This document shows, in pieces, positions 2,286-28,830 of a stretch of 38,545 nucleotides of DNA. The stretch is taken from the NCBI GenBank assembly GCA_023248915.1, contig JAHFDQ010000002.1:1-38545 (forward strand), given 5' to 3'. The position numbers and the translations under genes were made by a program. This DNA comes from Archangiaceae bacterium. GTDB lineage: Bacteria > Myxococcota > Myxococcia > Myxococcales > Myxococcaceae. Under the pieces are notes generated by a model, which was not told the origin of the DNA, searched no databases, and worked only from the letters and a program-made list of their open reading frames with translations. How positions within the stretch are numbered: the first letter of the stretch is position 1; every line of letters starts with the position of its first letter.

Positions 2286-3326
2286 ATGGACACGCGGCTC
2301 GCCACGCTCTTCCTCGCGCTGCTCACGGCCAGCCCCGCCCTCGCCCAGCGGGAGTACTTCTTCGGCTCGGGTAAACCTCCCGTCTTTCGCGAAGAGGACG
2401 TCGATCGCCGGTTCGCCAAGTCGAAGCTGGCCCGGGCGCTGGCCCAGGGCACCGAAGACCCGGCCTGCATGCAGGTGCTGGGCGGGCTCTTCACGGTGCT
2501 GGCCGAGATTGGCCCGACCCTGCACAAGCGCGACGAGAACTTCTCGGTCGACCCTGCTCTCCTGCAGGCGATGAGCGCCCAGTTGGTCAGCCCGAAGTTC
2601 CCGGGCAACGCCTACCTGACGGCGATGGTGCGCCGGGTGCTGATCGACCGGAAGCTCCCCGACGAGTGGCTGGCCACGGCCGAGGCGATCAACTCGAAGG
2701 TGCAGATCATCGACGTCGGGAAGCTCAAGTTTCTCAACGAGGGGCTTTCGCCCATCGACAGCCTGTACTTCACGCTGCCCGCATTGCGCGACCGCTACGA
2801 CATCGAAGTGCAGCGCGCCACCTCGGCCGCCTCGAGCGACGTCGCGGCCGACTTCCGGGACACGTACCTCGATCGCGACGTCGCGTGGGGCGGCGCGGTG
2901 ATGGTCGAGGCGGGCATCGCCAAGCCGGTGACGCCAAAGGGCAAGAAGAAGCCGCCGCCCGAACCGGGAACCGAGCAGGTGATGGCCATTCTCGAGTGGT
3001 GGCCCCCGCAGCCGACCCAGACTCAAATCGTCGTCTTCGCGGCCAAGCCGGTTCCTCCGGTGAAGATCATCGCCAGGCTCGCCCCGAAGCAGTACCTCGA
3101 ATTGGCGAAGGTGCCGAAGGGCAAGCGCCTGATGGTGCGCGGCCGCTTCTGGGAAATGAATCGCTCGGTCACCGAAGTCGAAGTACGCGACGCCCTGCTC
3201 TTCGAAGACCGGGACTGGTCGCAGGGGGCGCTCTTGGCAACCCCCGCGGCGGTGGCGGCGTGCCCGCTCGCGTTCAACGAGCTGACCGGTTCGACGCCGA
3301 AGCAGATCGGCGGGTTCGCGCACTAG
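2286..3326 (+). CDS. secreted protein of unknown function
   Basis: A 346-residue protein. I chose ATG 2286 rather than the ORF start at 2265 because it places a clean signal peptide at the N-terminus (MDTRLATLFLALLTASPALA, cleavage before QREYFF). The mature protein has no motif I recognise. A mostly helical first half includes a DPACMQVLGGLF segment. A loop rich in Lys and Pro (PKGKKKPPPEP) separates it from a second half with beta-like strands (QTQIVVFAAKPVPPVKIIARL, KRLMVRGRFWEMNRSVTEVEVRDALLFED) that could form an OB-like or barrel domain. Probably periplasmic or envelope-associated. No ribosome-binding site is visible. Confidence 0.7.
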   Translation: MDTRLATLFLALLTASPALAQREYFFGSGKPPVFREEDVDRRFAKSKLARALAQGTEDPACMQVLGGLFTVLAEIGPTLHKRDENFSVDPALLQAMSAQLVSPKFPGNAYLTAMVRRVLIDRKLPDEWLATAEAINSKVQIIDVGKLKFLNEGLSPIDSLYFTLPALRDRYDIEVQRATSAASSDVAADFRDTYLDRDVAWGGAVMVEAGIAKPVTPKGKKKPPPEPGTEQVMAILEWWPPQPTQTQIVVFAAKPVPPVKIIARLAPKQYLELAKVPKGKRLMVRGRFWEMNRSVTEVEVRDALLFEDRDWSQGALLATPAAVAACPLAFNELTGSTPKQIGGFAH

Positions 3327-3343: not shown

Positions 3344-3361
3344 TTGGCACGGAGGCTGCTT
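3344..3361 (+). promoter_or_regulatory. sigma-54 (-24/-12) promoter
   Basis: TTGGCACGGAGGCTGCTT matches the RpoN consensus TTGGCACG-N4-TTGCTT with one mismatch (CTGC for TTGC). The invariant GG and GC lie exactly 12 nt apart (3346 and 3358). Initiation about 12 nt past the GC falls near 3371, ahead of a GGAGG ribosome-binding site and the ATG at 3389. The element is intergenic and correctly oriented. An activator site was not identified. Confidence 0.7.
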
Positions 3362-3388
3362 CGAGTCGCCCAACGCTCGGAGGCCTCG

Positions 3389-4162
3389 ATGAGAGTTGCC
3401 GGCACGGTGCGAGGCGAAGACGCCAAGCCCCTGAAATCAGGAAGCTTCAAGCAGGCCCTGCACCAAGTGAAGGGGGCCGCCCGTACCGACGCCGGGAGGG
3501 TCAATCCAGTCGGGCGGACTGGCACCAACCCAGGGGTGGCCGTCTCGTCGCGGGTCCGAGTTGCTTCGGCGCAGCGGGCTCGGGTCGACGGCCGGCCAGG
3601 GCCCGGCACGCCGGAAGGTCTCGCCCTGTCGCGCCAGCAGATGCACGCCGACGCGGGACGGCTGCTGACCGACCGGCGAGACGGGCAAGGTCACCAGAAC
3701 GAGCGGGCGTCCGAGCGCCTCTTGGAGATGATCTCCCGCGAGCTTTGCGACGCGCCCGGCACTTCCCCGGAGATCGCCCGCGCGCCGGGCCCCGCGGCCG
3801 GGCTGCCCGTACATGGCCCTTCCGAATCGAGCGCGGGCGGAAGCGCTCCGCTGCCCTACGGGCTCGAGGGCGTCCGCTCGGGACGCTCGCCTGCGGGCCC
3901 GGAAACTGCCGCCACCCGCGCGGCCTCGGCGCTCGAGCTGGTCACCAAGATCGAGGCGTTCGTCCGGTCGCAGCGACCTGCCCTGGCCCTGACCCTCAAC
4001 TCCGGTTTCGGAACCAAGGTCGAGATCGAACGGCTGGGCCCCAAGCAGGTCGCCGTCAAGGTGCACGGCCGCGGGGGGCCACCCGCTCCGGAAGATCTCG
4101 CCCGGCTACGCGACGAGCTGAGAGCCCGGGGACTGACGCTCTCGGCCCTGTCGGTGTCCTGA
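3389..4162 (+). CDS. disordered protein with FliK C-terminal-like domain
   Basis: The ORF frame opens at 2666 inside the preceding gene. The real start is ATG 3389, preceded by GGAGG and by a -24/-12 promoter, giving 257 residues. Residues 1 to about 180 are low-complexity (Arg, Gly, Pro, Ala, Ser) with one helical stretch (NERASERLLEMISRELCD). The last ~75 residues are ordered: ALELVTKIEAFVRSQRPALALTLNSGFGTKVEIERLGPKQVAVKVHG, then LARLRDELRARGLTLSALSVS. This pattern resembles the C-terminal domain of FliK/YscP-type hook- or needle-length regulators (L-x-L, V-x-V-x-L strands, then a helix ending in G-L-x-L-x-x-V-x-V). The disordered N-terminus also fits such rulers. The match is by eye only. 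No flagellar or type III genes are nearby, so the role is open. Confidence 0.6.
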   Translation: MRVAGTVRGEDAKPLKSGSFKQALHQVKGAARTDAGRVNPVGRTGTNPGVAVSSRVRVASAQRARVDGRPGPGTPEGLALSRQQMHADAGRLLTDRRDGQGHQNERASERLLEMISRELCDAPGTSPEIARAPGPAAGLPVHGPSESSAGGSAPLPYGLEGVRSGRSPAGPETAATRAASALELVTKIEAFVRSQRPALALTLNSGFGTKVEIERLGPKQVAVKVHGRGGPPAPEDLARLRDELRARGLTLSALSVS

Positions 4163-4284
4163 CTTCCCGAGGGCGCAAACACGCGAGCTGCGGTGTCGCA
4201 TGACTTGTGAATGCGGCGGTGGCAAGGTGCGTCTGGACCCTATTCCGTTCCGCCCGGCTGTCGGAACCCCGCCCGGAGATCGCA

Positions 4285-4968
4285 ATGCTGAACCGCCTCT
4301 TCATCGCACTGTCGCTCTTTCCCAGCCTCGCCTTCGCCCAGCCCGCCGTCCGCGAACGGCCCCCGCCCCCACCTCCTCCGGGGCGCCCGTTGGCGAGACC
4401 CCAGGTGGGCCCACCCCAGCATGGAGCGAGCGCCGTGGTGCCCGCGCCCATCGTCCCCGGTTTCCGCGTGAACATCGCGCCTCCGGCGGCACGGGTCGAG
4501 GTCCGGCCGATGGCTCCTTCGCAAGGCCACGTCTGGATTGACGGCCACTGGAGATGGCGCGGCAACCGACACCTGTGGGAAGCCGGGTACTGGGAATTGC
4601 CTCCTTCGACAGGGTACCACTGGGTCGCGGCACGCTGGGTCAATGAGGGTGGCGCTTGGATGTTCTACGACGGCTACTGGGACCCCGGGTACACGCCCGT
4701 CGCTGAGACTCCCTACGAACCGCCTCCTGCCCCCCCCGAGCCGGTCTACGCCGAAGAACAGCCCCCGCAGAACATCGTCGAAGTTCGGCCGGTGGTTCCG
4801 TTCGCGGGCGCAGTGTGGATTCCCGGGTACTGGCACATCCGCGGCCATCACCAGCGGTGGATTGGCGGGCACTGGTCGGCTCCGCGCGAAGGCCATCGGT
4901 GGGAAGAGGGCCGGTGGGAACACGACCGCCGCCACTACCGCTGGGTGCCCGGCGGTTGGCGCCGCTGA
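4285..4968 (+). CDS. secreted WXXGXW/YXWXGXW-repeat protein
   Basis: A 227-residue protein. I start it at ATG 4285, preceded by GGAG, because this gives a signal peptide MLNRLFIALSLFPSLAFA with cleavage before QPAV. A proline-rich linker follows ([14 protein letters not shown]). Then come repeats of the type W(I/V)xGHWxWRGxxxxWxxGYWE, YHWVAARWV, WIPGYWHIRGHHQRWIGGHW and HYRWVPGGWRR. These fit the YXWXGXW-repeat family of small exported proteins. Aromatic-Gly repeats suggest a beta-rich, possibly surface- or outer-membrane-associated protein; no enzymatic function is indicated. It stands alone, with 122 bp to the previous gene and 59 bp to the next. Confidence 0.8.
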   Translation: MLNRLFIALSLFPSLAFAQPAVRERPPPPPPPGRPLARPQVGPPQHGASAVVPAPIVPGFRVNIAPPAARVEVRPMAPSQGHVWIDGHWRWRGNRHLWEAGYWELPPSTGYHWVAARWVNEGGAWMFYDGYWDPGYTPVAETPYEPPPAPPEPVYAEEQPPQNIVEVRPVVPFAGAVWIPGYWHIRGHHQRWIGGHWSAPREGHRWEEGRWEHDRRHYRWVPGGWRR

Positions 4969-27528: not shown

Positions 27529-28722
27529 TCAAGCACGAATGCATGTGCCTATTGTCGCGTTCGAGCGGTCCGGAGTTTCCTTCGGGCGTGCAATCCTCCG
27601 GTACCAGCGATCATGCCGTTCGACGAGATGGGCCGCGGTCAGCTCGCGTTCGACGAAGTCTCGGCCGGCAATTCCCAGGCGGCGCGCCCGAGCATGATCC
27701 GTCACGAGCCCGGCGATGGCGTCCGCCAGTTGATCAGGCCGGCGAGGCTCGACCAGGAGCCCTCGCTCGCCGTCGGTCACCAGCTCGGGGTTGCCCCCCA
27801 CCCGGGTCACCACCATCGGCAACCGCGCCGCCATGCCTTCGATGATCGCGTTGGACAGGCCCTCGACGTCCGAACAGAGAACGCCCACCGACGCCCTAGC
27901 GAGAATCGCCGGAATGTCGGTTCGAAACCCGAGGAAGTGCGCCAGGTTCTCGAGCTTCAAGCGCCGCGCGAGCTCTTCGAGTTGCGGCCGCCGGCAGCCG
28001 TCGCCCACGAAGAAAGCGTGCACCGACCCCACCTGCTCGCGCACCCTCGCGAGCGCTTGCAGCAGGTCTTCCTGGCGCTTCACCACGTGGCTCATGTTCG
28101 CGACCTGGACCACCGCCGGAGACGTGCCGACCTCGGGCACCGGGGCGTCGGGGGGCAGCGCCAGCCGCGCGTCGAACCGCGGGAGGTCTAGGCCGTTGCG
28201 AATGAGCGTCATTCGCTCGCCGGGAATTCCCTGAGCGAGGCAGGACTGGCGCACCGCCTCGGCGTTTACCACCACCCCGTCGGCGGCTCGGCTCAGCATG
28301 CCGAGCGCGGCGGACCGCGACGGGCCGTGCCAGTGCAGGAGGTCGAGCCGACCCACCACCACTTTGACTCCCGCCAGGCGCGCCGCCGGCACCCCGACCA
28401 GCGTCGAATAGAAGTCGTGCGCGTGCACCAGCTCGGCCCCGGTGTCCCTCAACCAGCCCGCCATCCGCTTGATCTGCCGGGCGGTATTGACCGACAGGAA
28501 CGAACCTCGCAGCGGAAACGCCCGGGGAAGGAAGCCCAGGCTTCGCACTTCCCCTACGAGCGGACCGACTTCGTCCAAGACCGCTACGGAGATCTCGTAC
28601 CCCGGGCCAAGGCCTCGCAGGAGCTCGACTACCTGGCACTCGGTGCCGCCAAGCCAGAATGCCTTGGTGAACTCCACGAGCCGAATGGGTGAGGGAGTGG
28701 CGTGCGCGTCGCGGTGGACCAT
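27529..28722 (-). CDS. GT4-family glycosyltransferase
   Basis: A 397-residue GT-B enzyme. The N-terminal acceptor domain opens RLVEFTKAFWLGGTECQVVELLRGL, the GG-x-E/T pattern of family 4. A linker ELVHAHDFYSTLVGVPAARLAGVK follows. The C-terminal donor domain has VANMSHVVKRQEDLLQALARV, HAFFVGDGCRRPQLEELARRL, HFLGFRTDIPAILARASVGVLCSDVEGLSNAIIEGMAARLPMVVTRVGGNPELV and GLLVEPRRPDQLADAI. The E-x7-E motif falls in EGLSNAIIE. It transfers a sugar from a nucleotide-sugar, probably in polysaccharide or glycolipid synthesis. No other cluster of polysaccharide genes is near. GGAGGGG precedes the ATG. It follows the DUF6178-like gene after 108 bp, which hold a GCTCC/GGAGC hairpin without T-run. Confidence 0.9.
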   Translation of the reverse strand: MVHRDAHATPSPIRLVEFTKAFWLGGTECQVVELLRGLGPGYEISVAVLDEVGPLVGEVRSLGFLPRAFPLRGSFLSVNTARQIKRMAGWLRDTGAELVHAHDFYSTLVGVPAARLAGVKVVVGRLDLLHWHGPSRSAALGMLSRAADGVVVNAEAVRQSCLAQGIPGERMTLIRNGLDLPRFDARLALPPDAPVPEVGTSPAVVQVANMSHVVKRQEDLLQALARVREQVGSVHAFFVGDGCRRPQLEELARRLKLENLAHFLGFRTDIPAILARASVGVLCSDVEGLSNAIIEGMAARLPMVVTRVGGNPELVTDGERGLLVEPRRPDQLADAIAGLVTDHARARRLGIAGRDFVERELTAAHLVERHDRWYRRIARPKETPDRSNATIGTCIRA

Positions 28723-28830
28723 CGTCGGGCCCCTCCGCGGTCTAGCAGCGCCCGTGCCAAGACGGCGCCCTTGGCTCCGCTCTCAGGGAGCAGTTTCCGC
28801 GACGGGACTCTCGGCGCCGGCGTCCAGAAG

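Follow-up and report, generated by a model that had tools for sequence, protein, structure and literature searches.

The window analysed here, a stretch of 38,545 nucleotides from an Archangiaceae bacterium (contig JAHFDQ010000002.1), carries at 3389..4162 (+) a gene whose product is, with a probability that we put at roughly three in four, the ruler and specificity switch, of the SctP/FliK type, of the "short" myxobacterial type III secretion system (T3SS), encoded remotely from that machine and controlled by sigma-54. This reading is carried by the membership of the protein in the SctP/FliK family, a conserved promoter that the gene shares with the short operon, its orphan location, its co-distribution with the short system and an N-terminal motif held in common with proteins of that system, all of which were computed here. 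We call it the lone gene.

A conserved sigma-54-type promoter precedes the lone gene

The lone gene is an open reading frame of 257 codons that begins with the ATG at 3389. A co-directional gene (2286..3326, +) ends with its stop at 3326, and the 62-nt gap between the two genes holds both a promoter and a ribosome-binding site. The promoter, TGGCACG-GAGG-CTGCT at 3345..3360 (+), is intergenic, is oriented with the lone gene and has its −24 (TGGCACG) and −12 (CTGCT) boxes at the correct spacing for sigma-54. As the GC of the −12 box lies at 3358-3359, transcription would be expected to start 12 nt further on, near 3371, ahead of the GGAGG at 3379..3383 (+), which stands 5 nt before the ATG. The earlier note had proposed this promoter, with its spacing and orientation, and had placed a GGAGG and the ATG downstream of the predicted start; both readings were upheld. 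The genome also encodes RpoN (PF04552 match, 210 bits), and a sigma-54 activator gene was seen on another of its contigs.

The quality of the motif alone was rejected as evidence for a promoter, the exact motif occurring 7 times in the 6-Mb genome compared with 13 times for a reversed-pattern control. The match counts as significant because it is conserved upstream of the orthologues, not because the motif is rare. When the best 16-mer within 70 nt of each start codon was scored, a score of at least 10 of 11 was reached in 46 of 49 distinct orthologue upstream regions versus 1 of 729 other open reading frames in the fetched loci. In the upstream alignment the elements sit 12-39 nt ahead of the start codon; the GG, the A and the TGC are invariant across 33 aligned sites, while the 4-5 nt spacer and most flanking columns vary. 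The promoter match might instead be an accident, with the lone gene read through from upstream. The background frequency of the exact motif would allow for this, as would a match of equal quality elsewhere in the window that is not conserved, but a footprint with a variable spacer across so many distinct regions, and the occurrence of the same element ahead of the short operon (see below), leave this reading almost no weight.

Elsewhere in the window the exact motif recurs at 28744-28759 (−), 21 nt ahead of the start codon (ATG) of a gene for a GT4 glycosyltransferase (27529-28722). This match was rejected as a promoter, as it is not conserved in three orthologues of the glycosyltransferase gene, and its sequence is probably a chance match; it therefore serves as a negative control for the promoter of the lone gene.

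Outside the common form, a genome from another family (G036) has the variant CGGCATG-N4-CTGCA upstream of its homologue, and in genus g7 the −24 box is retained but the −12 box is degenerate. No clear site was found upstream of the orthologues in two genomes of a third family (G037 and G056; f3). In one clade (L017, L018, L019, L092, L093 and L095) the start codon follows just 12-17 nt past the promoter element, which would leave the predicted mRNA with little or no leader.

The lone gene encodes a protein of the SctP/FliK family

No Pfam family passes its cut-off with the window protein itself, for which Flg_hook (PF02120) scores 13.6 bits (E 0.06). Most orthologues likewise fall below the Flg_hook cut-off, in which they differ from the known family, but one of them (L126:4615-4869, from G037) passes it at 30.1 versus 29.8 bits; PF02120 was matched by 4 of 26 domains of the lone-gene family, the best at E 1e-5, below cut-off. 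Since its own Pfam score is sub-threshold, the membership of the window protein in the FliK/SctP family rests on orthology.

In the full-length AlphaFold model a short helix at F20 is followed by a confident helix at residues 75-121 (3611..3751, +; pLDDT 82-95), which would belong to a putative ruler part, then by disorder and a compact C-terminal domain. The "long disordered region" of the earlier note has to be corrected in one respect, as this long helix is predicted to lie inside it. The C-terminal, switch-type domain (residues 174-256; 3908..4156, +) has the predicted topology helix, three strands, helix, strand. Modelled in isolation it reached a mean pLDDT of 72, and Foldseek placed 5CUK, the PscP switch domain, first of 350,542 chains, with a weak E of 0.024, a probability of 0.84 and a TM of 0.41; 2RRL and 5CUK were the reference folds for the switch domain. 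The full-length model returned no FliK or SctP structure, and a sequence search of the PDB with the family returned no FliK or SctP chain. Alignment of the family by hhalign with the long-system SctP and with FliK gave no informative match, and this comparison is uninformative because the positive control, long-system SctP against FliK, failed too. The C-terminal domain of Pseudomonas aeruginosa SctP has been reported to resemble the FlhB-binding core domain of FliK (PMC6972891). The FliK/YscP likeness that had been drawn by eye therefore stands at the level of the family, on the Flg_hook match of L126 and the weak first place of 5CUK, and the Foldseek comparison proposed alongside it pointed weakly the same way with the isolated domain and gave no FliK or SctP hit with the full-length model.

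The sequence and the model together describe an SctP/FliK-like architecture, with an N-terminal motif, a helical and disordered middle and a C-terminal domain. F20 and L24 are invariant within an otherwise variable N-terminal region of the orthologue alignment, the codons of F20-K-Q-A-L24 occupying 3446..3460 (+). The pattern F-x3-hydrophobic is present in 58 of 59 and in 10 of 10 orthologues and recurs, in comparable positions, in all 25 SctI proteins and the first-gene product of the short operon as well as in the long-system SctP. Early flagellar subunits carry a similar small hydrophobic motif for gate recognition (PMC8983047, PMC10936197), and by this analogy F20-x3-L24 is a candidate export/gate motif.

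The short type III system lacks a recognisable SctP

The earlier note had regarded the gene as unusual for an apparently non-flagellar organism. This view did not hold, as the genome has, besides rpoN, two type III systems and a separate SctP, which adjoins SctQ on contig C437; of its two SctV genes, one is split across two contigs. Across the relatives, SctV/FlhA proteins, sorted by score and sequence similarity, fell into three classes, namely a probably flagellar one, a "long" and a "short" myxobacterial one, and most Myxococcaceae have both the long and the short system. The long-system locus has the order SctL-N-O-P-Q and includes its own PF02120 protein, the C-terminus of the long-system SctP matching that profile. 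The short-system operon reads first gene, SctI, SctJ, a 171-aa open reading frame, SctQ, FliO and SctR, S, T, U and V. Its SctI matches PF17001 (E 2e-4), and no recognisable SctP was found in it. In genomes with only the short system, SctL-SctN-SctO form a third locus, also without SctP; here the SctL and SctO labels come from gene order and sequence character, a profile having been applied to SctN only. The lack of SctP in both the short operon and the third locus supports the assignment of the lone gene to this machine. The short-system SctU retains the NPTH self-cleavage site, so that a potential partner for the lone-gene protein exists.

These long and short loci fit those described by Abby and Rocha in 2012 (PMC3459982). 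Loci L047, L056 and others match the description of the short system in having no secretin and no classical needle. In the parts of that study available to us, the short system is placed at the root of the non-flagellar T3SS tree, SctP is treated as not analysable by sequence similarity, and none is assigned to the short system. Descent from an ancestral non-flagellar T3SS has been proposed for the short system, which is regarded as needleless. The product of its first gene (L056:2442-2888 and equivalents) is conserved, ends in RHDSAKAAINNIR and gives weak, repeated matches to the HrpF, needle and HrpA pilin profiles, which makes it a candidate for a so far unrecognised polymer subunit of these "needleless" systems. 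A paralogue of this protein occurs in the long system.

The short operon and the lone gene have a promoter type in common by sequence

An element of the form GGCA[CT]G-N5-TG[ACG][AT] precedes the first gene in 25 of 25 short operons at a distance of 25-49 nt, and at most a few of them depart from it, by a single mismatch in the outer positions. In the genome of the window it reads CGGCACGCCCGGTGAA and lies 34 nt ahead of the start. When 729 upstream regions were screened, the element was found in three, each of them upstream of a short-system first gene, and in 0 of 726 unrelated ones. In Myxococcaceae the −12 box of the short operon is mostly TGAA, an off-consensus form, rather than TGCT. Judged by their sequences, the lone gene and the short operon have the same type of promoter. 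Sigma-54-type elements were also looked for before the genes of the long system, where none was found, and for most SctL-N-O loci, where sigma-54 control was not found either.

The lone gene stands apart from the secretion genes

The neighbours of the lone gene are conserved in Myxococcaceae, and no type III secretion gene is among the conserved neighbours in the loci compared, which agrees with the earlier description of a gene standing alone without secretion genes nearby. The same comparison gave a different result in three genomes of another family, likely Anaeromyxobacteraceae (f5; the family name is our inference), in which the homologue comes after two others, a gene whose TPR product weakly matches the type III protein HrpB1_HrpK (E 2.6e-4) and a small open reading frame (G083, G084 and G069); synteny with type III genes, which the earlier note had suggested examining, is thus absent in Myxococcaceae and present as this type III-like neighbour in f5. 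A lone location does not disqualify a protein from the SctP/FliK family, because scattered T3SS exist (PMC3459982).

The upstream gene (2286..3326, +), a positionally conserved partner, encodes a protein with a signal peptide and no match in Pfam, NCBIfam or PHROGs, and lies outside the mechanism proposed below. It directly precedes the lone gene in most of the Myxococcaceae loci examined and also in f2 and f3 genomes. On the 3' side the next gene (4207-4968, +) encodes an unrelated product with WXXGXW repeats (PF12779). A record titled Comamonas sp. KCTC 72670 (L080; BNCN01000003.1) carries the lone gene in myxobacterial synteny and is probably mislabelled.

From this context one could argue that the gene is unrelated to type III secretion and that a FliK-like fold has been reused, for example together with the conserved upstream exported protein. 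Synteny with that gene is conserved in three families, no type III gene lies nearby in Myxococcaceae, and the lone gene is missing from a complete genome that has the short operon (G105). We nevertheless regard this as very unlikely: the promoter type is held in common with the short operon and with none of the 726 unrelated genes, the promoter itself separates the lone gene from the upstream gene, the N-terminal motif recurs in short-system proteins, a type III-like TPR gene is the neighbour in f5, and the lone gene is distributed with the short system.

The lone gene is distributed with the short system

The lone gene has homologues in 34 of 60 relatives, nearly all from one family whose named records are Myxococcaceae. 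The lone gene was present in about 100 of 112 short-positive genomes versus 3 of 32 short-negative ones, counts of our own that are not independent because the genomes are related; the three short-negative carriers are incomplete or fragmented genomes. Genomes with the short system almost always carry the lone gene, in a single copy. In G006, G008, G011 and G026, four genomes whose only detected SctV is of the short type, the lone gene is present and PF02120 has no match elsewhere. It is absent from the three genomes of genus g20, which have the long system only, and from G020, in which no type III system was found, and all families with neither system are negative. In the likely Anaeromyxobacteraceae a broader profile matched a homologue in 10 of 20 genomes. 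The exceptions to co-occurrence are G105, G031 and the f5 genomes without a detected homologue. G105, a complete genome from the same family, has the short operon with its first gene, and its lack of the lone gene is apparently a recent loss.

The same distribution bears on the idea of a role for the lone gene in a flagellum or in the long system, which is probably the "needleless" T3SS* of M. xanthus. Most Myxococcaceae do have both systems, and an N-terminal motif like that of the lone-gene protein occurs in the long-system SctP. The long system, however, already has its own SctP beside SctQ, the lone gene is missing from long-only genomes and kept in short-only ones, and no such promoter was found at long-system loci, so that we consider service to the long system or a flagellum highly improbable.

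A proposed role in the short system

Assignment to the short system as its SctP/FliK-type ruler and switch is thus the reading that we prefer, and from it we infer export of the protein, binding to SctU, switching and any measurement of length. Sigma-54 RNA polymerase and a putative enhancer-binding protein would transcribe the lone gene together with the short operon. The protein would leave early through the apparatus by means of its N-terminus (F20-x3-L24), its middle, part helix and part disorder, would span the growing substructure, and its C-terminal domain would dock on the short-system SctU, with its conserved NPTH. Docking would then end the export of the early subunits, SctI and the first-gene product. 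Whether length is measured would depend on whether the short system builds a polymer. A wider proposal, which we put forward tentatively and hold to be somewhat less probable than its opposite, is that the short system is a complete sigma-54-controlled machine with a length-limited periplasmic or surface polymer of SctI and the first-gene product, measured and switched by the remote SctP.

Alternatively, the protein might bear a switch-like domain yet act only as one of the short system's substrates or effectors, made together with the machine rather than controlling it. The promoter type and an N-terminal motif in common with SctI and the first-gene product would fit any co-expressed substrate equally, and a lone location is typical of effectors. 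But the C-terminal domain is of the SctP/FliK kind, the machine is otherwise without an SctP, and near-universal, single-copy presence with the short system is unlike most effectors; we therefore consider this unlikely.

The short system is widespread in predatory myxobacteria, and the portions of the literature covered by our search yielded no function for it. A conserved SctP would imply early and late substrates and a structure of controlled size, and hence a machine rather than a relic. The shared sigma-54-type promoter offers a testable regulatory entry point, leading to the activator and then to the condition, and gives a first handle on the timing of the machine.

Comparison with known systems

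Like FliK, YscP/PscP, HrpP and HpaP (PF02120), the lone-gene protein combines a putative N-terminal export motif, a flexible middle and a C-terminal switch-type domain, for which the PscP switch domain is the nearest, if weakly matched, solved fold. It differs from the usual members in being encoded away from the machine behind a sigma-54 promoter, and at 257 aa it is shorter than Salmonella FliK with 405 aa (PMC6972891). The family is known; a remote SctP for the short system and the shared promoter did not appear in the literature searched, which was covered incompletely, nor are they described in the available parts of the study of the short system, the machine to which we assign the gene (PMC3459982). 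A related apparatus in the same bacteria, the needleless T3SS* of M. xanthus (mxan_2434-2464, PMC12075869), is without secretin, needle and translocon and is probably the long system, which, unlike the short one, has its own SctP in the L-N-O-P-Q order and no detected sigma-54-type element. The T3SS genes of Chlamydiales are likewise scattered over several loci (PMC3459982), in an unrelated lineage for which no common promoter of the lone-gene type is claimed.

A second copy of the C-terminal domain is encoded on contig C70 of the genome of the window (L055:838-1101, −) by itself, in a small protein that lacks the long middle part; this may be a soluble, ruler-less switch or the product of a contaminating contig. 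In G022, a genome with two systems, the gene at C1:2844516-2845784 encodes the sole FliI/YscN-type ATPase above cut-off, a hint that both systems may depend on a common ATPase.
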